DNA of 64,000 nucleotides, taken from NCBI RefSeq assembly GCF_003387075.1, contig NZ_QUMQ01000001.1, positions 6,882,001 to 6,946,000 of the forward strand. Direction: 5' to 3'. The position numbers were made by a program, and so were the translations under genes. Below are positions 7,123 to 16,719 of the stretch, piece by piece. The DNA comes from Asanoa ferruginea. Lineage in GTDB: Bacteria; Actinomycetota; Actinomycetes; Mycobacteriales; Micromonosporaceae. Each line of letters starts with the position of its first letter. The stretch's first letter is position 1. A model generated the notes under the pieces. It ran no database searches. It had not been told where the DNA came from and saw only the letters and a list, made by a program, of their open reading frames with translations.

Positions 7123-10100
7123 ATGCCGGACATGCCCATTTTTTCCAGGCGCAGTTCCGTGCGAGGTGGCACGCGAACGCGCTGGCTCGCCAGACTCGGC
7201 GAGGGTCGGTTCAGCCGGCCGTCGGCGGCCTTGGCCGCCGTCACCGTCATGCTGGCCAGCGGTGTGCTGGCCGGAGTCTTGTCGGGCACCAGCCCGGCCG
7301 GAGCCGTAGCGCCGGCTCAGCTGCAGGCCCAGGTGCTCACCTGGACGGCCGCCGACAGCTTCCAGGCCTACGCGTCCGTGCCGACCACCGCCGTCGCGGG
7401 CCCCACCACCATCGTCTTCGAGAACAGCGCCGCGACCGGCAACACCACCGGGATGCAGCACACGCTGACCTTCGACACCGGTGACCCCCGCTACAACAAC
7501 GACGTCAACATCAACATCGTGGCCGACCCGTCGGACGGCAGCCAGGGCCGGCACACGGTCGACGTGGTGCTGACCCCGGGCACCTACCACTACTTCTGCT
7601 CGATCCCCGGGCACGGGCAGATGACCGGCCTGCTGGTGGTCACCGGCGGCGGCGGCGACACCACCGCGCCGACCGTGTCGGCGCAGGTCGCGGGGGAGCG
7701 CGACGGCAACGGCAACTACGTCGGCGCGGCGACGGTGACGGTCAACGCCAGCGACGCCGGCTCGGGCGTGGCCCGGGTGGAATACGCGCTCGACGACGGC
7801 CCGTTCGGCACCTACTCGGCGCCGGTCACTGTCAACAGCCCCGGCCAGCACACGGTGCGGTTCCGCGCGACCGACGAGGCCGGCAACACCTCGGAGATCG
7901 GGTCGACGCAGTTCACCGTGGTGCAGCCCAACGAGGACACCACCCCACCGACCGTGACCGCGGCCGTCGACGGTGACCAGGACGAGAACGGCGCCTACGT
8001 GGGCACCGCCACCGTCACGCTGACCGCCACCGACACCGGGTCCGGCGTCGCCACCGTCGAATACTCGCTCGACGGCGGTGCGTTCACGGCCTACACCGCG
8101 CCGGTCACGGTCAGCACCCCGGGCCAGCACACCGTGCAATACCGCGCCACCGACGAGGCCGGCAACACCGCCAGCCCGCAGTCGGTCGCGTTCGCGGTGG
8201 TCGACGCGCCCGACCCGGACAACACCGCGCCCGAGGTGACCGCCACGGTCGCCGGCGAGCGCAACGACGAGGGCGCCTATGTCGGCACCGCGACGGTCAC
8301 CGTCGCCGCCACCGACGCGGGCTCCGGCGTGGCCACGGTCGAATACTCGCTCGACGGCGCGCCCTACGCGGCCTACACCGCGCCGGTCGCGGTCAACCAG
8401 CCGGGTGCGCACACGCTCAGCGCCCGCGCCACCGACGAGGCCGGCAACACCTCCACGCCGGAGACGGTCACCTTCACCGTCGCGGACACCACCGGCGCGG
8501 ACACCACCGCGCCGACCGTCAGCGCCGCGGTCACCGGTGACCAGAACGAGAGCGGCGCCTACGTGGGCAGCGCGACCGTCACCGTCACCGCCACCGACGC
8601 GGAGTCCGGTGTGGACACCGTGGAATACGCGGTCGACGGCGGCGCCTACGCGGCCTACACCGGGCCGGTCACGGTCAACCAGGTCGGGGCACACAGCGTG
8701 AGCTACCGGGCGACCGACCACGCCGGCAACACCTCGACGCCGCAGACGGCCACGTTCACGGTCGTCGACGCGCCCAACCCCGACAACACCCCGCCGGCGG
8801 CGACCGCCACGGTGACCGGCACCCGCAACACCGCCGGCGCCTACGTCGGCGCGGCCACGGTGACGATCGCGGCCACCGACGCGGGCTCCGGTGTGGACAG
8901 TGTCGAATACTCGCTCGACGGCGCTCCCTACGCGGCCTACACCGCGCCGGTCACCGTCAACCAGATCGGCGCCCACAGCGTGAGCTACCGGGCGACCGAC
9001 CGGGCCGGCAACACCTCGACGCCGCAGACGGCGACGTTCACGGTGGTCGCGGTGCCCAACCCGGACACCACCGCGCCGGTCGTCAACGCGGCCCTCGCCG
9101 GTCAGCTCGACGGCAGTTGGTCCTACATCGGCAGCGCGACCGTCACGCTGACCGCCACCGACACCGAGTCCGGCGTGCTGCGGGTCGAATACGCCCTGGA
9201 CGGGCGCGGCTACCTGGTCTACACCGGGCCGGTCACGGTCAACACCCCGGGCGCGCACACCTTCAGCTACCGGGCCACCGACCGGGCCGGCAACGTCTCC
9301 AGCACCGCGTCGACCACGTTCACCGTGGTCGAGAGCGGCCCGCCGGCGCCGACCTGCACGGTCGCCGACAACCGCACCACGGTCTGGATGGGCACCCACA
9401 ACAGCGGCGTCGCCAACCGGGTCGTCGAGCGCGGTTGCAGCATCAACGACCTCGTGCTCGACGAGTCGCCGTGGGCCAGCACCGCGGAGTTCGTCGCGCA
9501 CGTCACCGAGGTCGCCGACCGGCTGCACAGCCGCGGCTTCATCCCGCTCAAGGACCGCAACGGCCTGGTCCGGGGTGCCCGGGAGAGCAACGTCGGCAAG
9601 TCCGAGGCGGTGCAGGGCTACACGCCGCTGCTGGACACCAAGGCCGCGTCGTTCAAGCTCTGGGAGCAGGTCGGCGCCGGCGGTTTCCGCCGCAACGCCG
9701 ACGGCTCGATCTCCAGCAAGCCGGTCGACGGCCTGGGCATGCTCTGGTTCCCGGTCCGCACCTACGGCGACTTCTCGCTCAAGTTGCAGTGGCGCGACGA
9801 CGCACCCGGTGAGGGGCGCGCCAACAGCGGCGTCTTCGTCCGCTTCCCGCAGGTGCACCAGCACCCGCAGGAGCCACGGCCGGAGTGGGTGGCCATCAAA
9901 TACGGCCACGAGCTGCAGATCTTCGACAGCCCGACGGGCGATCAATACAAGAGCGGCTCGGTGTACGGGTTCGACCAGGTCAACCTGGCCGACGCGGGGG
10001 TGACCGCCAAGGGCACCTGGAACGACTACGAGATCCGGGTCGTCGGGCAGCACTACTCGATCTTCCGCAACGGCAAGCTGATCAACCAGTTCACCAACGG

Positions 10101-10248
10101 TCCGGGCCAGCTCTTCAACCCACCACGGGCGGACGACCCGGGCACCGACGGGCGGCAGAACGCCGAGGGCTACATCGGCCTCCAGAACCACAGCGCGGCC
10201 GACGCTGTCAGCTTCCGCAACGTCCGCATCGCACCGCTGACCCCGTAG
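7123..10248 (+). CDS. Secreted cupredoxin / Ig-like repeat / DUF1080 protein
   Basis: A protein of about 1041 residues. The N-terminus has an Arg-rich leader and hydrophobic core (AALAAVTVMLASGVLAGVLS). A plastocyanin-like domain follows (residues ~65-175) with copper ligands visible as His in MQHTL and Cys/His/Met in YFCSIPGHGQM. Six repeats of 93-94 residues (179-~740) each start D(T/N)T(A/P)P and contain SLDG...YTAPVTV and RATDEAGNTS; they resemble Ig-like or OmpL47-type modules. After a Cys-containing linker module comes a DUF1080/3-keto-disaccharide hydrolase domain (~815-1041; WNDYEIRVVGQHYSIFRNGK). ATG 7123 follows GGAAG closely; ATG 7132 is also possible. It heads the secreted cluster. 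Confidence 0.85.
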   Translation: MPDMPIFSRRSSVRGGTRTRWLARLGEGRFSRPSAALAAVTVMLASGVLAGVLSGTSPAGAVAPAQLQAQVLTWTAADSFQAYASVPTTAVAGPTTIVFENSAATGNTTGMQHTLTFDTGDPRYNNDVNINIVADPSDGSQGRHTVDVVLTPGTYHYFCSIPGHGQMTGLLVVTGGGGDTTAPTVSAQVAGERDGNGNYVGAATVTVNASDAGSGVARVEYALDDGPFGTYSAPVTVNSPGQHTVRFRATDEAGNTSEIGSTQFTVVQPNEDTTPPTVTAAVDGDQDENGAYVGTATVTLTATDTGSGVATVEYSLDGGAFTAYTAPVTVSTPGQHTVQYRATDEAGNTASPQSVAFAVVDAPDPDNTAPEVTATVAGERNDEGAYVGTATVTVAATDAGSGVATVEYSLDGAPYAAYTAPVAVNQPGAHTLSARATDEAGNTSTPETVTFTVADTTGADTTAPTVSAAVTGDQNESGAYVGSATVTVTATDAESGVDTVEYAVDGGAYAAYTGPVTVNQVGAHSVSYRATDHAGNTSTPQTATFTVVDAPNPDNTPPAATATVTGTRNTAGAYVGAATVTIAATDAGSGVDSVEYSLDGAPYAAYTAPVTVNQIGAHSVSYRATDRAGNTSTPQTATFTVVAVPNPDTTAPVVNAALAGQLDGSWSYIGSATVTLTATDTESGVLRVEYALDGRGYLVYTGPVTVNTPGAHTFSYRATDRAGNVSSTASTTFTVVESGPPAPTCTVADNRTTVWMGTHNSGVANRVVERGCSINDLVLDESPWASTAEFVAHVTEVADRLHSRGFIPLKDRNGLVRGARESNVGKSEAVQGYTPLLDTKAASFKLWEQVGAGGFRRNADGSISSKPVDGLGMLWFPVRTYGDFSLKLQWRDDAPGEGRANSGVFVRFPQVHQHPQEPRPEWVAIKYGHELQIFDSPTGDQYKSGSVYGFDQVNLADAGVTAKGTWNDYEIRVVGQHYSIFRNGKLINQFTNGPGQLFNPPRADDPGTDGRQNAEGYIGLQNHSAADAVSFRNVRIAPLTP
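7657..9340 (+). repeat. Six in-frame 279-282-bp repeats
   Basis: Repeat units begin at 7657, 7936, 8218, 8500, 8782 and 9064. The spacing is 279 bp once and 282 bp thereafter, so the reading frame is kept. The units are very similar at DNA level and encode the Ig-like spacer between the cupredoxin and the C-terminal module. Confidence 0.9.
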
Positions 10249-10264
10249 GCAAAGGACAAGACCA

Positions 10265-11452
10265 GTGGAGAAGGAAACCTCACGCCTGGGTACGGTCGGC
10301 GGTCCGCGGCTGATGGCCGTCGCGATCCTCGCCGTGACCCTGGTCGGCGCGGGGGTCCTCCGGTTCGGCGGCCTGACGGCCGCCGGGCCGGGGGCGCCCG
10401 CCGCGGTCCCCGCCGTCAACACCCAGCAGCAGGCCGAACTCGCGGCGCTGGCGCCGGGCGACCGCCCCGACGGCTGCATCCAACCCGACCGCCGCATCCA
10501 GCTCTACGCGGTCGAGTTGCCCCGTGACAACAACCAGATCCGGCTCGGCTACGGCCTGACGCCGGAGACCGCCTCGTACCCCGGACCGTTGATCGAGATG
10601 ATCGAGGGTGAGTGCCTGGCGATCACCCTGCACAACGACGTCCCGGCGGCGACCCTGGAAGCGCTCCGCCAGGACCCCAACCACCCGCTCGGGGTGTCGC
10701 TGCACACCCATGGCGTCAAATACACGCCGGCCTCCGACGGCACCATCCACACCGACTCGTGGGTGCCGCCGGGCGGCCAGCGCACCTACATCTGGTTCGC
10801 GAAGCCGCGTGGTGCCGGATCGCAGGGCACGGCCGGCTACTGGTGGTACCACGACCACATGGTCGGTGGTCCACATGGGACCCGCGGCCAGGGCACCGGA
10901 CTGTTCGGCGGGCTCGTCGTGCGCCGGCAGGGCGACATCCGGCCCAACCGCACCTACGTGACCGCGTTCGGTGACCTCCAGTCGATCAACCTGAAGCGCG
11001 GCGCCGCGACCGACACCTGCGACCCGGCCAACCCGGTGCCCGGCCCGACCTGCCTGATCGCCAAGCCCGGCGAGCGGGTCGAGTTCCTGGTCATCGGCAT
11101 GGGCAACGACATGCACACCTTCCACCTGCACGGGCACTCCTGGTCGGACAGCCGCACCGGGATGCTCGACGGCACCAACAAGGCCCTGGCCGACGCGGTG
11201 CCGGTCATCGACAACAAGGCCCTCGGGCCCGGCGACTCGTTCGGTGTGACGGTGGTCGCCGGTGACTCGGTCGGCGCCGGCAACTGGATGCTGCACTGCC
11301 ACATGCAGTTCCACTCCGACCAGGGCATGGCGACGATGCTGCACGTCCTCCAGCCGGACGGCACGCTCGCGCCGCACAGCGCCGACCACGCGCCGGCCGC
11401 GGCCTCCGACGCCACGGCCGCGCACGCCGGGCACGAGGGGGCCCACCAGTGA
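10265..11452 (+). CDS. Two-domain multicopper oxidase, copy 1
   Basis: A 395-residue oxidase with an N-terminal membrane or signal helix (LMAVAILAVTLVGAGVLRF). Copper motifs, in order: HTHG (147-150), YHDH (195-198), TFHLHGHSW (285-293) and HCHMQFHSDQGM (344-355). The type 1 copper Cys is 345, with His350 and Met355, so T1 copper is in the second domain as in small laccases. Family members couple substrate oxidation to reduction of O2. The tail is rich in His and Ala (HAGHEGAHQ). GTG 10265 lies after AAAGGACAAG. It sits 16 bp after the cupredoxin gene and close to the ThuA gene, so one operon is likely. A close paralogue starts at 15577. Confidence 0.9.
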   Translation: MEKETSRLGTVGGPRLMAVAILAVTLVGAGVLRFGGLTAAGPGAPAAVPAVNTQQQAELAALAPGDRPDGCIQPDRRIQLYAVELPRDNNQIRLGYGLTPETASYPGPLIEMIEGECLAITLHNDVPAATLEALRQDPNHPLGVSLHTHGVKYTPASDGTIHTDSWVPPGGQRTYIWFAKPRGAGSQGTAGYWWYHDHMVGGPHGTRGQGTGLFGGLVVRRQGDIRPNRTYVTAFGDLQSINLKRGAATDTCDPANPVPGPTCLIAKPGERVEFLVIGMGNDMHTFHLHGHSWSDSRTGMLDGTNKALADAVPVIDNKALGPGDSFGVTVVAGDSVGAGNWMLHCHMQFHSDQGMATMLHVLQPDGTLAPHSADHAPAAASDATAAHAGHEGAHQ

Positions 11453-11475
11453 CCATCCGATCCCCGCAGCATCCC

Positions 11476-11482
11476 GAAGGAG
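11476..11482 (+). promoter_or_regulatory. Ribosome binding site choosing ATG 11488
   Basis: GAAGGAG ends 5 nt before ATG 11488, close to an ideal spacing. This favours ATG 11488 over the GTG at 11449 that overlaps the stop of the upstream oxidase gene. Confidence 0.65.
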
Positions 11483-11487
11483 CAGGA

Positions 11488-14400
11488 ATGGCCCACCGAA
11501 AGCGGCGCCGGGTCGCCGCAACGGCGCTACGCCGCGCGTTCGCGCTGGTGTCGGCGGCCGTGCTGACGCTCGGCATCTTGTCCGGGCCGGCATCCGCACC
11601 GGCCGCCGCCGCGGTGGCGCCGACCTGGGGTGCCAACGCCGTCAACGTGTTGGTCTTCCACGGCCCGACCGACCAGCAGGACGACCCGGTCGCCAAGGCG
11701 GTCGCCGCGGTGCGCAAGCTCGGCACCGACAACGGCTTCACCGTCAAGGTGTCCAGTGACCCGACCGTGTTCACCGCCGACAACCTCGCCAAATATCGCG
11801 GCGTCGTGTTCCTGTCCGCCAACGGCGTCACGCTCAACGACGCGCAGGAGGCGGCTTTCCAGGCGTACGTCAAGGGTGGCGGCGGTTTCGTCGGCGTCCA
11901 CGACGCGGCCCGCGCGCAGCCCGGCTCCGAGTGGTTCACCGGGCTGATCGGCACCCGGCCGGCACCGAGCCTGCCCAACGCCGAGAAGGTCGTCGAGCGC
12001 GCGGCGAGCGGTGAGAACGCGCCCAACGAGGGCATCGCTCAGCTCTTCGACGGCTCGACCGGCACCAAGTGGCTGGTGCGCACCAACACCGGCTGGGCGC
12101 AGGGCAAGCTGGCCTCCCCGACCGTGGTCAACCGCTACGCGCTCACCTCGGCCAACGACTTCCCCGGCCGCGACCCGAAGAACTGGAAGCTACAGGGCTC
12201 CAACGACGGGCAGAGCTGGACCGACCTGGACACCCGGACCAACGAGGTGTTCCCGCAACGGTTCCAGACCCGGCAGTTCTCGTTCACCAACACCACCGCC
12301 TACCAGTACTACCGGCTGGACATCTCGGCCAACAGCGGTGAGCCGCTGATCCAGCTCGCCGAGCTGTGGCTGATCGGCCCCGACGCCGGGCCGCCGCCGG
12401 AGAGCAACGTGCAGCAGGCGACGGTCAGCGTGACCGACCGCCAGCACCCGGCCAACAAGGGCCTGCCGCTGACCTGGACCCGCTCGGACCAGTGGATCAA
12501 CTGGGACCCGAACCCGACCGGCAACGTGCAGACCATCGCCCAGGTCCAGGAGAACACCTACAACGCCGGGCTCAGCGGCAACGGTGCCTTCCACCCGATC
12601 TCCTGGTGCCGCGACTACGACGGCGGCCGCTCCTTCTACACCGGCATGGGGCGCACCGACGCGAGCTACACCACCGACACCAGGTTCCTCGGCCACCTGC
12701 TCGGCGCGATCCAGTGGACCACCGGCCTGGTGCGCGGTGACTGCCAGGCGACCATCGCGTCCAACTACAAGGTGGAACGGCTGACCGCGGCCAACCAGCC
12801 CGGCCAGCTCGACCAGATCGGCGAGCCGCACGGCCTGACCATCGCGCCGGACGGCACCGTCTTCTACATCGGCAAGGCGGCCTGCCCGACCGGGCCCGTC
12901 GTCGACTGGAACAACCCCAACGTGGGGCTCGGCTGCGGCACGATCCACTCCTGGGATCCGCGTACCAAACAGGTCAAGCTCCTCACCACGCTCAAGGTGA
13001 TGGGCAACCGGGGCAGTGGCAGCGAGTTGGTCAAGAACGAGGAAGGTCTGGTCGGCATCACGCTCGACCCGAACTTCGCCGACAACGGCTGGTTCTACGT
13101 GTTCTGGATGCCGCACGAGTCGATCGACCGGGAGAAGCGGGTCGGCCAGCGGACGGTGTCCCGGTTCACCTACGACAAGGCGACCCAGAGCATCGACCAG
13201 GCCACCCGCAAGGACCTGCTGCACTGGGACACCCAGATCCACAGCTGCTGCCACGCCGGCGGCGGCATGACCTTCGACGAGTCCGGCAACCTGTTCATCG
13301 GTTCCGGTGACAACAACTCGTCCGGCGGCTCCGACGGCTACTCGGGCAACAACTGGACCGAGGAGTTCGCCGGCCTGTCGTTCCAGGACGCGCGGCGCAC
13401 CGCCGGCAACACCAACAACCTCAACGGCAAGATCCTGCGGATCCACCCGGAGGCCGACGGCACCTACTCGATCCCCGACGGCAACCTGTTCACCGGCCAG
13501 GAGGGCGGTGGCGGCAAGGCCCGCCCGGAGATCTACGTGATGGGCGTGCGCAACATCGCCCGGATCGCCTGGGACAAGGCCAACCACTGGCTGACCGCCG
13601 CGTGGGTCGGCCCCGACGCCGGCGCACCGAGCCCGGAACTGGGGCCGGCGAAGTACGAGACCGCGACGATCATCACTCAGCCCGGCAACCACGGCTGGCC
13701 CTACTGCATGGGCAACCGGCAGCCCTACCGCGACCGCAGCACGACCGACGCGAGCGTGCTGACCGGCTGGTATGACTGCGACAACCCGAAGAACGAGTCG
13801 CCCCGCAACACCGGTCTGGTCAACCTCCCGCCGGTCCGCGACAACATGATCTGGTATTCGCCGCAGGGCGGTGGCCCGGTCTTCCCGAAGCGGACCGACG
13901 GCAGCGGCCTGCCGACCTACGTGCAGTCGGAGACCACCTACACCCAGCCCTACCTGAGTGGCGGCGGCCAGGCCATCATGGACGGCCCGACCTACCACCG
14001 CTCGCAGGTCGACGTGAACAGCGGCGTCGCCTGGCCGGCCTACTGGGAGAACAAGTGGTTCATCGGTGACGAGTCCAACGGCAACAACCGGGTCGCCATC
14101 CAGGTGAACCCCGACACCGCCACCTCGGCCGGCGCGCCCGCGTTCGCCGAGGACCTGCGCCGGATCATCCCGCCGGGCAGCAACGGCACCACCCAGCTCC
14201 AGTCGTGGATGGACGCCAAGTTCGGCCCGGACGGCGCGCTCTACATGCTCGACTATGGCGGCGGCTTCTTCACCCTGCACGGCAACCAGAAGCTGATCCG
14301 GATCACCTACCAGGGTGGCCAGGCGACCCCGAACCCCGCCTCGGCCACGGCGATCTCGGCGACCCCGAGCACGCCCCGGACCATCGCCTTCTCCAGCAAC

Positions 14401-15474
14401 CGGGTCGGCGGCGTCGCCTGGGAGTGGGACTTCGGCGACGGCACCAAGGGCTCCACCGCACCGCACCCCAACCACACCTACAAGCGCTACGGCACCTTCC
14501 AGGCCAAGCTGAAGGTGACCTACGCCGACGGTGAGGTCGTCACGGCGACGATCCCGGTCACCGCGGGCTGCGTCGCACCCGACGCCCGGCCGACGGTCTA
14601 CATGCTGGAGACCGACACCGAGGTGGCCAACCGGCAGGTCGGCGGCGGCTGCACGATCAACGACCTGATCGACGACGAGACGACCTGGCCCAACCGGGGC
14701 GCGTTCGCCGACCACCTCGAGACGGTCATCGCCGAGTTGACGGCGTCGCACGTCGTCGACACCAAGGAGGCCAACACGCTCCGGCGGGTCGGCACCCAGT
14801 CGCCGATCGGCGCCACCAACGGCTACCAGACCCTGTTCAACGGCACGGCTTACTCGTTGGCCGGCTGGCGGCAGGCGCCCAGCGGTGGGTTCGGCCTGCG
14901 ACCGGACGGCTCGATCCGCAGCACCGGCGGGCTCGGCATGCTGTGGTACGCGGACCAGCAGTTCGCGGACTACTCCATCCGGCTCCAGTTCAAGGACATC
15001 GCGCCGGAGGGCTTCCGGGCCAACGGCGGTGTGTTCGTCAGGTTCCCGGACCCGCGTACCCCGCTGGAGCAGCGGCCGCCGGGAAGCTGCGGCACGGTCG
15101 GGTCGGCACGGTCGTCGCAGGCCTGGGTAGCGATCTACTGTGGACACGAGATCCAGATCTATGACGGTGAGACGGGCGAGCCGCAGAAGACCGGCTCGGT
15201 CTACAACTTCGACCCGAACACGCTGGCCCAGGCCGGCGCGACGCCGAAGAACGTGTGGAACGACTACGAGATCCGCGTGGTCGGCCAGCATTTCACGATG
15301 ATCCGCAACGGCGTGGTGATCAACGAGTTCGACAACACGCCGGGCAAGGCGTCGTCTCGCGCGGGTGACCCGCCGACCGACCTGCGCCAGTTCATCAGCG
15401 GTTACATCGGTCTACAGAACCACAGCAACAACGACCTGATCGAAATTCGCAACGTGCGGGTGCGCACCTACTGA
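11488..15474 (+). CDS. Giant secreted ThuA / discoidin / GSDH / PKD / DUF1080 protein
   Basis: A protein of about 1328 residues. Domains, approximate: signal peptide (1-45); ThuA-like domain, first half (~50-155; VNVLVFHGPTD, GGGGFVGVHDAA); an inserted F5/8-type C (discoidin) domain (~165-305; LFDGSTGTKWLV, WKLQGSNDGQSW, YYRLDIS, AELWLIG); ThuA second half (~310-420; PISWCRDYDGGRSFYTGMG); a glucose/sorbosone-dehydrogenase-like propeller (~430-950; GEPHGLTIAPDG, GEEGLVGI-like EEGLVGITLDPNF, CCHAGGGMTFD); PKD (~955-1030; WEWDFGDGT); a Cys-containing linker; and DUF1080 (~1115-1328). I chose ATG 11488 because GAAGGAG precedes it by 5 nt; GTG 11449 is possible. The likely role is oxidative attack on extracellular glycosides. 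Confidence 0.85.
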   Translation: MAHRKRRRVAATALRRAFALVSAAVLTLGILSGPASAPAAAAVAPTWGANAVNVLVFHGPTDQQDDPVAKAVAAVRKLGTDNGFTVKVSSDPTVFTADNLAKYRGVVFLSANGVTLNDAQEAAFQAYVKGGGGFVGVHDAARAQPGSEWFTGLIGTRPAPSLPNAEKVVERAASGENAPNEGIAQLFDGSTGTKWLVRTNTGWAQGKLASPTVVNRYALTSANDFPGRDPKNWKLQGSNDGQSWTDLDTRTNEVFPQRFQTRQFSFTNTTAYQYYRLDISANSGEPLIQLAELWLIGPDAGPPPESNVQQATVSVTDRQHPANKGLPLTWTRSDQWINWDPNPTGNVQTIAQVQENTYNAGLSGNGAFHPISWCRDYDGGRSFYTGMGRTDASYTTDTRFLGHLLGAIQWTTGLVRGDCQATIASNYKVERLTAANQPGQLDQIGEPHGLTIAPDGTVFYIGKAACPTGPVVDWNNPNVGLGCGTIHSWDPRTKQVKLLTTLKVMGNRGSGSELVKNEEGLVGITLDPNFADNGWFYVFWMPHESIDREKRVGQRTVSRFTYDKATQSIDQATRKDLLHWDTQIHSCCHAGGGMTFDESGNLFIGSGDNNSSGGSDGYSGNNWTEEFAGLSFQDARRTAGNTNNLNGKILRIHPEADGTYSIPDGNLFTGQEGGGGKARPEIYVMGVRNIARIAWDKANHWLTAAWVGPDAGAPSPELGPAKYETATIITQPGNHGWPYCMGNRQPYRDRSTTDASVLTGWYDCDNPKNESPRNTGLVNLPPVRDNMIWYSPQGGGPVFPKRTDGSGLPTYVQSETTYTQPYLSGGGQAIMDGPTYHRSQVDVNSGVAWPAYWENKWFIGDESNGNNRVAIQVNPDTATSAGAPAFAEDLRRIIPPGSNGTTQLQSWMDAKFGPDGALYMLDYGGGFFTLHGNQKLIRITYQGGQATPNPASATAISATPSTPRTIAFSSNRVGGVAWEWDFGDGTKGSTAPHPNHTYKRYGTFQAKLKVTYADGEVVTATIPVTAGCVAPDARPTVYMLETDTEVANRQVGGGCTINDLIDDETTWPNRGAFADHLETVIAELTASHVVDTKEANTLRRVGTQSPIGATNGYQTLFNGTAYSLAGWRQAPSGGFGLRPDGSIRSTGGLGMLWYADQQFADYSIRLQFKDIAPEGFRANGGVFVRFPDPRTPLEQRPPGSCGTVGSARSSQAWVAIYCGHEIQIYDGETGEPQKTGSVYNFDPNTLAQAGATPKNVWNDYEIRVVGQHFTMIRNGVVINEFDNTPGKASSRAGDPPTDLRQFISGYIGLQNHSNNDLIEIRNVRVRTY

Positions 15475-15486
15475 TCCAACCTTGGT

Positions 15487-15518
15487 GACCGGGTACGGGT
15501 ATCCACCCGTACCCGGTC
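15487..15518. terminator. Perfect 14-bp hairpin after the ThuA/GSDH gene
   Basis: GACCGGGTACGGGT pairs exactly with ACCCGTACCCGGTC around a 4-nt ATCC loop, 12 bp past the stop codon at 15474. There is no T-tract. The position suggests a terminator that ends the operon before the second oxidase, which has its own promoter-like sequence. Confidence 0.7.
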
Positions 15519-15543
15519 ATTGTGGGTTATCGGCGCGGCTCCG

Positions 15544-15571
15544 TTGCTGGTCCTTGCCGCCGTCGTAGGCT
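15544..15571 (+). promoter_or_regulatory. Candidate promoter for second multicopper oxidase
   Basis: TTGCTG (15544-15549), a 16-bp spacer and TAGGCT (15566-15571) lie 5 nt before GTG 15577. This layout fits a sigma-70-type promoter giving a leaderless mRNA. It follows the hairpin at 15487-15518, so the gene may be transcribed on its own. Confidence 0.5.
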
Positions 15572-15576
15572 CGGAC

Positions 15577-16719
15577 GTGCAACGTGCGAAAAAGGAAATC
15601 TCACGTCTGAGCTGGGCGAGCGCACCCCGGGTGATGGCCGTCGCGGTGTTCGCCGTGACGCTGTTCGGTGCCGGGCTCCTGCGCTTCGGTGCGCAGCCGG
15701 CCGCTGCTCCGATCGCTGGTCCAGCCGCCGCGGTGCCGGCACGACACGCGGTCGCGGCGGCGCCCGCCGCCCAGCCCGACGGCTGCGCCAAGCCCAACCG
15801 GACGATCCAGCTCTACGCGGTCGAGCTGGCCAAGGACCCGGTGACCAAGCAGGTCCGGCTGGGCTACGGCCTGGCGGCGAAGTCAGCCTCCTACCCGGGC
15901 CCGACGATCGAGATGACCGAGGGCGAGTGCCTCGCCATCACCCTGCACAACAACGTGTCGTCGGCGACCCTGCAATCACTGCGCGGCAACAGCGCCCACC
16001 CGCTCGCGGTGTCGCTGCACGCCCACGGCGTCAAATACACCGCGTCGTCGGACGGCACCATGGAGAACAAGTCCTACGTCGCGCCCGGCGGCCAGCGCAC
16101 CTACTTCTGGTATGCCAAGCCCCGCGACCCGACCACCGGCGCGCAGGGCACCGCCGGCTACTGGTGGTATCACGACCACATGGTCGGCGGTCCGCACGGC
16201 ACGGCCGGCATGAGCTCGGGCCTGTTCGGCGCGCTGATCGTGCGCCGCCAGGGCGACGTGAAGCCGGCCCGCACCTACGTGACCGCGTTCGGCGACCGCC
16301 AGTCCATCAATCTGCGGCGCGGTGCCGCGACCGACACGTGCGCCGCGACCAAACCGGTGGCCGGCCCGACCTGCCTGATCGCCAAGCCCGGCGAGCGCAT
16401 CGAGTTCGTGGTCATCGGGATCGGCAACGACGTGCACACGTTCCACCTGCACGGGCACTCGTGGGCCGACACCCGCACCGGAACGCTCGACGGCACCGAC
16501 AAGTCACTGGTCAACTCGGTAGCGGTGATCGACAACAAGACGCTCGGCCCGGGCGACTCGTTCGGCTTGCAGATCATCGCCGGCGACTCGGTCGGCCCTG
16601 GCAACTGGATGCTGCACTGTCACATGCAGTTCCACTCGGACCAGGGCATGTCGACGATGCTGCACGTGCTCAACGCCGACGGCACGGTGGCGCCGCACAG
16701 CGCCGACCACGCACCCTGA
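15577..16719 (+). CDS. Two-domain multicopper oxidase, copy 2
   Basis: About 380 residues and very similar to the oxidase at 10265 along its whole length, including the N-terminal membrane helix (MAVAVFAVTLFGAGLLRFG). Copper motifs are HAHGVKY, WWYHDHMVG, TFHLHGHSW and HCHMQFHSDQGM. It lacks the His/Ala-rich tail of copy 1. I chose GTG 15577 (VQRAKKEISRL) because it aligns with the start of copy 1 and follows a promoter-like TAGGCT; GTG 15520 in the same frame is the alternative but lies next to the terminator hairpin. It converges on anmK with 3 bp between the stop codons. Confidence 0.88.
   Translation: MQRAKKEISRLSWASAPRVMAVAVFAVTLFGAGLLRFGAQPAAAPIAGPAAAVPARHAVAAAPAAQPDGCAKPNRTIQLYAVELAKDPVTKQVRLGYGLAAKSASYPGPTIEMTEGECLAITLHNNVSSATLQSLRGNSAHPLAVSLHAHGVKYTASSDGTMENKSYVAPGGQRTYFWYAKPRDPTTGAQGTAGYWWYHDHMVGGPHGTAGMSSGLFGALIVRRQGDVKPARTYVTAFGDRQSINLRRGAATDTCAATKPVAGPTCLIAKPGERIEFVVIGIGNDVHTFHLHGHSWADTRTGTLDGTDKSLVNSVAVIDNKTLGPGDSFGLQIIAGDSVGPGNWMLHCHMQFHSDQGMSTMLHVLNADGTVAPHSADHAP

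Follow-up and report, generated by a model that had tools for sequence, protein, structure and literature searches.

Why should genes for copper proteins, a sugar-dehydrogenase-like propeller and glycoside-processing domains lie side by side in an actinobacterium? The question is raised by a stretch of 64,000 nucleotides from Asanoa ferruginea (contig NZ_QUMQ01000001.1; hereafter the window), in which positions 7123-16719 hold four genes, A, B, C and D, all on the same (+) strand (Table 1). The original prediction had assigned to them a cupredoxin, two two-domain multicopper oxidases (MCOs), a glucose/sorbosone dehydrogenase (GSDH)-like propeller, ThuA and two DUF1080 domains, and had joined these into a self-contained electron chain. 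Pfam profiles and copper ligands confirmed all of the named domains, and the earlier interpretation as a whole was partly supported. On balance we lean, if not strongly, towards reading the locus as an extracellular redox unit, conserved in actinobacteria, that serves the turnover of carbohydrates. In this scheme a sugar or glycoside would be oxidised extracellularly by the GSDH-like propeller of C, and the electrons would pass to the cupredoxin of A. A two-domain MCO, of the small laccase (SLAC) type in Streptomyces and of a divergent sister type in the window, would take up these electrons and reduce O2 to water, while ThuA and DUF1080 would act on the oxidised product, which may be a 3-keto-glycoside. 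The electron flow, its direction, the substrate, the cofactor and the 3-keto chemistry are what we infer from the observations below.

Recurrence of the unit and its relation to small laccases

Relatives of B were counted at E<=1e-50 in 61 genomes and were present in 14 of them, namely its own genome, all five others of the genus and 8 of the 31 others of the family. Homologues of A, the MCO and C were found together in 13 of the 14 loci fetched from genus and family. In a scan of named genomes with the GSDH domain, the best 80 of 504 relatives were taken, the nearest being Asanoa species; this set leans to close kin, and some of its organisms are also among the 14 loci above. Domains were located in the loci by tblastn with the window's own domains, a search that divergent copies may escape. 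Among these best 80 loci, an MCO was matched in 78, a cupredoxin in 77 and the two together in 77, within about 10 kb; every one of the 80 also has ThuA, PKD and one or more DUF1080 matches (GSDH being present by construction). Two loci, L058, which begins within the repeats of A, and L059, which begins just before ThuA, lack the full unit because both end at contig ends.

Five gene orders were observed, A+B+C+ (26 loci), B+C+A+ (30), A-B+C+ (13), B-C+A+ (5) and C+A+B+ (3), in addition to L058 with its cut A, and therefore the unit is kept despite rearrangement. The DUF1080 domain moves between A and C across loci. Two copies occur in the 26 A-B-C loci and in L058, and one in the remainder of the 80; of the Streptomyces loci that were fetched, the 14 with GSDH carry it in A and never in C. 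Micromonospora globbae carries both an A-B-C version (L066) and a B-C-A version (L104) in one genome. No recurring cluster of flanking genes was found between unit loci of different genera; such clusters were seen within a genus only. Looked for elsewhere, the neighborhood described in the original prediction was found again in four families (Micromonosporaceae, Streptomycetaceae, Pseudonocardiaceae and Streptosporangiaceae) and in most of the laccase-bearing Streptomyces sampled. The grouping of these domains and genes is not chance.

The Streptomyces sample comprised 150 genomes drawn evenly from the genus, in which the laccase was counted at E<=1e-60 and GSDH at E<=1e-150. Laccase was present in 95 genomes and GSDH in 92; both were found in 91, laccase only in 4, GSDH only in 1 and neither in 54. 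In the single GSDH-only genome the contig ends at that point. Laccase and GSDH lay on one contig in 91/91 genomes, with 1002-1631 bp between the matches, and on opposite strands in 90 of them; Fisher's test of their co-occurrence, which ignores shared ancestry, gave p ~9e-35. Eighteen of these regions were fetched. All 13 ordinary ones hold the laccase, a ThuA-GSDH protein and a cupredoxin-OmpL47-DUF1080 protein. The other five had been chosen as exceptions or second copies: L139, which stands at a contig end, has no laccase, and only the laccase is seen in L137, L140, L141 and L147.

The MCO of the unit in S. carpinensis is identical to the crystallised PDB 8aip across the 293 residues of that chain, and it is the sole match in that genome at E<=1e-40. 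The small laccases thus share this kind of locus, and the window holds a divergent version of it. In S. coelicolor SLAC is SCO6712, as given in an excerpt of PMC3918160, and from gene order SCO6710 is probably the A homologue; SCO6711 is likewise a probable C homologue. No paper naming SCO6711 was found in the open-licence literature.

Two types of MCO fill the same slot in these loci. A midpoint-rooted tree of 91 rows, built without L034, whose coordinates as used gave a stop, placed B and D among 31 A-B-C-type rows; a branch of 2.21 sets these apart from the other 60 rows, which are SLAC-like. Taking the SLAC-like clade as the SLAC subfamily proper, B and D lie outside it. The partner genes are the same for both clades. 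Within its clade D clusters with the B proteins of Asanoa (7 rows, 100/99; branch 0.48), and because of this clustering it looks like an Asanoa-side duplicate. Each of the five other Asanoa loci fetched has one MCO, and paired adjacent MCOs are special to this genome among those examined. Of the four genes grouped earlier, A, one MCO and C make up the conserved unit, and D lies outside it.

The propeller of gene C and the proposed electron route

The copper sites of the unit are well kept. The cupredoxin of A matched PF00127 weakly (E 0.0012, 19.7 bits, under the cut-off of 21.2), its PDB neighbors being auracyanin, rusticyanin, azurin and plastocyanin (E 0.0014-0.069). The type-1 ligands H/C/H/M were complete in 14/14 aligned rows, as in a blue-copper protein. 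The MCO motifs HxHG, HDH, HTxHxHxH and HCHxQxHxDxGM were present in 80/80 sequences (B, D and 78 homologues). B and D contain PF07731 and PF07732, with insertions relative to SLAC-type small laccases. The PF06439 (DUF1080) scores of A and C, 111.4 and 110.7 bits, were far above the curated cut-off of 26.8, and ThuA (PF06283) of C was found at E 3.9e-58, interrupted by an F5/8-type-C (F5/8C) domain.

The AlphaFold2 (AF2) model of the C propeller had a mean confidence (pLDDT) of 82.5, and its top Foldseek match was sGDH, at E 3.2e-18; against TTHA0570 the TMt score was 0.80-0.81. Residues corresponding to the catalytic His, Arg-Asn and Gly-Pro were invariant in 30/30 GSDH rows. They include the positions of sGDH His144, Arg228 and Asn229, and together with the propeller fold they place C among the proteins resembling dehydrogenases dependent on pyrroloquinoline quinone (PQQ). 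At the catalytic His, residues 160-164 of the window GSDH read His-x-Cys-Cys-His; the Cys-Cys-His was invariant in the same 30/30 rows and is not found in Runella.

Fusions to electron carriers in distant relatives give the best support, by analogy, for transfer from GSDH to cupredoxin. Twelve plasmid records held a GSDH relative, at 26-36% identity except for one Streptomyces relative at 60%, and six regions were examined, the Paenibacillus one having no annotation. Runella joins GSDH, PKD, cytochrome c and CBM6 in a single chain. A GSDH-cupredoxin fusion occurred in two of the three haloarchaea: Halocatena has a copper-bind-GSDH fusion, and Haladaptatus has copper-bind domains on two GSDH proteins, of which one also carries ThuA, and an MCO annotated some 3.4 kb from the first of the two. 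The third, Natronococcus, has a DUF1080-GSDH protein without a fused carrier; roughly 5 kb from it lies an MCO that bears a copper-bind domain. In the haloarchaeal plasmids L151 and L152, GSDH, ThuA or DUF1080, copper-bind domains and MCOs stand near each other, an apparent archaeal parallel of the unit. As controls, two other loci of the window's own genome, L043 and L044, contain three GSDH genes beside ThuA and DUF1080, and the two of these GSDH proteins that were scanned carry PKD, CBM6 and lectin domains. No MCO or cupredoxin was found near these two loci or three further DUF1080 loci at E<=1e-4 within 18-19 kb.

Several observations weigh against a redox unit of this kind. The Arg-x-Arg near the C-terminus of E. 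coli YliI, a motif that anchors PQQ in sGDH, was kept in 0/9 subfamily rows, in what is a distant alignment. The PQQ-site Lys was absent from the aligned column of these nine rows, with a Lys a few residues later in some of them. Among the fold matches of the propeller was HHIP, a relative that is not an enzyme. PqqC had no match in this genome at E<=0.001, and PqqE gave only PqqE-like matches far under the cut-off. The PqqC search is able to detect the protein, because 33/150 Streptomyces scored over the cut-off; there, PqqC occurred in 19/92 GSDH-positive vs 14/58 GSDH-negative genomes and was thus independent of GSDH. Lacking PQQ synthesis genes is not proof against PQQ use: E. coli, for one, relies on PQQ without making any itself. 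From the missing PqqC and the unkept Arg-x-Arg it follows that the GSDH may have scavenged PQQ held by other anchors, another cofactor, or none. No MCO was annotated in the Runella and Halocatena plasmid stretches. The laccase occurs without GSDH in four Streptomyces genomes and in one second copy, the one exception among the 14 genus and family loci (L034, a second MCO copy in genome G002) is an isolated MCO, and Micromonospora sp. ATA32 (L074) has C without an MCO or cupredoxin match in the stretch covered, which includes 5 kb upstream. The literature contributes three further points: one DUF1080 protein is an endo-xanthanase/lichenase and not a 3-keto enzyme (excerpt of PMC9007349), phenols are the known SLAC substrates (excerpt of PMC3918160), and the title of a cited work ties a Streptomyces phenol oxidase to morphogenesis.

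Of the electron chain proposed earlier, the step from GSDH to cupredoxin gained support from the distant fusions, but its self-contained character was not supported, given the absent PqqC, the unkept PQQ residues and the independence of PqqC from GSDH in Streptomyces. For the later step, analogy with other systems suggests that DUF1080 may act as a 3-keto-glycoside hydrolase; its action after glycoside 3-oxidation has been proposed for lactose use in Caulobacter (PMC9007349, in the part available).

The alternative that survives best, although we consider it unlikely, is that the unit acts on phenolic glycosides or lignin-carbohydrate material. The MCO would then be a true laccase on phenols, DUF1080 and ThuA would remove or alter the sugars, and GSDH would be a sugar-binding or structural propeller without a redox role. 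The oxidation of phenols by SLAC, stated in the accessible part of PMC3918160, is consistent with this, as are the unkept PQQ-anchoring Arg, the match to HHIP and, in S. fungicidicus, a regulator of LacI type next to the MCO, with close homologues in 4/18 fetched Streptomyces loci. However, the invariance of the catalytic His, Arg-Asn and Gly-Pro equivalents argues against a mere binding module, which also would not need the cytochrome c or cupredoxin to which its relatives are fused.

Still less probable is a reverse use of the laccase, in which the MCO would make quinones or phenoxyl radicals from phenols and GSDH would re-reduce them. Cycling between cellobiose dehydrogenase and laccase provides the model, GSDH-type enzymes accept quinone acceptors, and the phenol oxidation by SLAC fits here too. 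This scheme leaves no role for the cupredoxin, which is conserved in 77/80 loci. We give slightly less weight again to copper handling, in which the cupredoxin and MCO would serve to buffer or oxidise copper outside the cell, with the carbohydrate domains as no more than their anchors to glycans; it leaves ThuA and DUF1080 in 80/80 loci and the cytochrome c fusion unexplained. A crude pattern search found no CsoR-like repeat at the window locus or at the Streptomyces loci scanned; two matches, in L037 and L042, lie away from the unit. That the genes are unrelated chance neighbors has a negligible probability, and was rejected in spite of the lone MCO copies L034, L137, L140, L141 and L147, given the recurrence in the loci of the best 80 of 504 relatives, the five gene orders and the adjacency of 91/91 Streptomyces pairs.

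The redox unit remains our preferred reading, and a wider proposal that we regard as possible but tentative builds on it. Actinobacterial small laccases would be the natural terminal oxidases of a secreted glycoside-oxidising chain, in which a GSDH with a re-anchored or non-PQQ cofactor would pass electrons through the cupredoxin to the laccase, and ThuA and DUF1080 would cleave the oxidised glycosides. Kept by soil actinobacteria, many Streptomyces among them, next to genes for a copper electron carrier and a secreted protein resembling a sugar dehydrogenase, this well-studied laccase may be where a chain that oxidises carbohydrates delivers its electrons to oxygen.

Gene boundaries, an unnamed domain and nearby features

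Table 1. Genes, domains and hairpin of the Asanoa ferruginea locus (positions in the window)
Feature	Position	Strand	Description
Gene A	7123..10248	+	cupredoxin, six OmpL47-type repeats, unnamed domain of about 80 aa, DUF1080; signal-like N-terminus
Gene B	10265..11452	+	two-domain MCO
Gene C	11488..15474	+	ThuA (with F5/8C insert), GSDH propeller, PKD, unnamed domain, DUF1080
Gene D	15520..16719	+	second two-domain MCO; as start, GTG 15577 preferred over TTG 15520
Cupredoxin domain of A	7288..7647	+	weak PF00127 match; type-1 Cu ligands H, C, H, M
DUF1080 (PF06439) domain of A	9607..10245	+	Pfam profile
GSDH-like propeller of C	12763..14322	+	PF07995; AF2 model; Foldseek
DUF1080 (PF06439) domain of C	14818..15471	+	Pfam profile
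Unnamed domain, A copy	9340..9609	+	pattern like C..DxRxTV...C[ST]IN[DE]L
Unnamed domain, C copy	14566..14823	+	35% identity to A copy
Hairpin 3' of C	15484..15521	+	strong and perfect, 17 bp; no clear T run

The tight spacing noted earlier was confirmed. A and B are separated by 16 nt, and the reading frame of C is open from GTG 11449, overlapping the stop of B; ATG 11488, preceded by AAGGAG, is the likelier start. The hairpin lies between A-B-C and D, its region (15475-15530) having a folding energy of -38.3 kcal/mol (z -6.09), and TTG 15520, the mechanical start of D, falls inside it. Export of the window proteins was assessed by eye only, from signal-like N-terminal stretches.

The F5/8C insert, the PKD domain, the OmpL47 repeats and the unnamed domain of A and C are features beyond those originally described. 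The unnamed domain has two Cys invariant across 19 aligned rows, and its AF2 model had a pLDDT of 84.7. Pfam gave no match to it up to E 10, and in the PDB no fold matched at E<=0.001, the top match being at E 0.39. In L040-L042, A has no DUF1080, yet the unnamed domain is kept at its end.

The LacI-type regulator beside the MCO is found in L148 as well, and one of the four close homologues in Streptomyces is at the lone laccase L137. This is a second laccase copy of genome G212, adjoining a close homologue of the regulator that stands next to the laccase in complete loci. In the divergent laccase-GSDH promoter region of L130, L134 and L145, TTTATCCACAC or a near form, followed by CAGGACAAAGTT, was seen by eye. 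This recurring TTTATCCACAC/CAGGACAAAGTT stretch is possibly a regulator site.

Comparison with known systems

In the DUF1080 3-keto-glycoside hydrolases (BT2157 and the proposed CCNA_01705), PF06439 stands beside an oxidoreductase-like gene, as it does here (PMC9007349, in part). The Caulobacter partner is the LacABC 3-dehydrogenase, whereas here the partners are a GSDH-like propeller and copper proteins. The C domain matches ThuA of trehalose utilisation (PF06283), but it is split by F5/8C and fused to GSDH. With sGDH and the aldose sugar dehydrogenases (1c9u, 2ism and E. coli YliI), C has in common the propeller fold and counterparts of the catalytic His, Arg-Asn and Gly-Pro; it differs in its long insertions and in the unkept Arg-x-Arg of the PQQ site. 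The locus draws attention to a GSDH subfamily whose cofactor site is unusual, and also to an unnamed domain.

In the PDB, 50 distinct chain sequences of small laccases match the S. carpinensis laccase at E<=1e-100, yet the published accounts, in the portions available, describe phenols as substrates and name no partner protein. In the open-licence literature, no paper was found that joins a small laccase, a cupredoxin and a sugar/sorbosone dehydrogenase in Streptomyces; most subscription papers lie outside this scope, so the link may be published. The locus is kept in 91/95 laccase-bearing Streptomyces among the 150, which makes its physiological role directly testable through the two partner genes. 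The two-domain small laccases of Streptomyces (SLAC SCO6712; PDB 3cg8, 4m3h and 8aip) have the same domain layout, copper motifs and kind of locus as the MCOs of the window. B and D differ from them in forming a separate long-branch clade with insertions, and the function described for the small laccases, in the source text available, is phenol oxidation.

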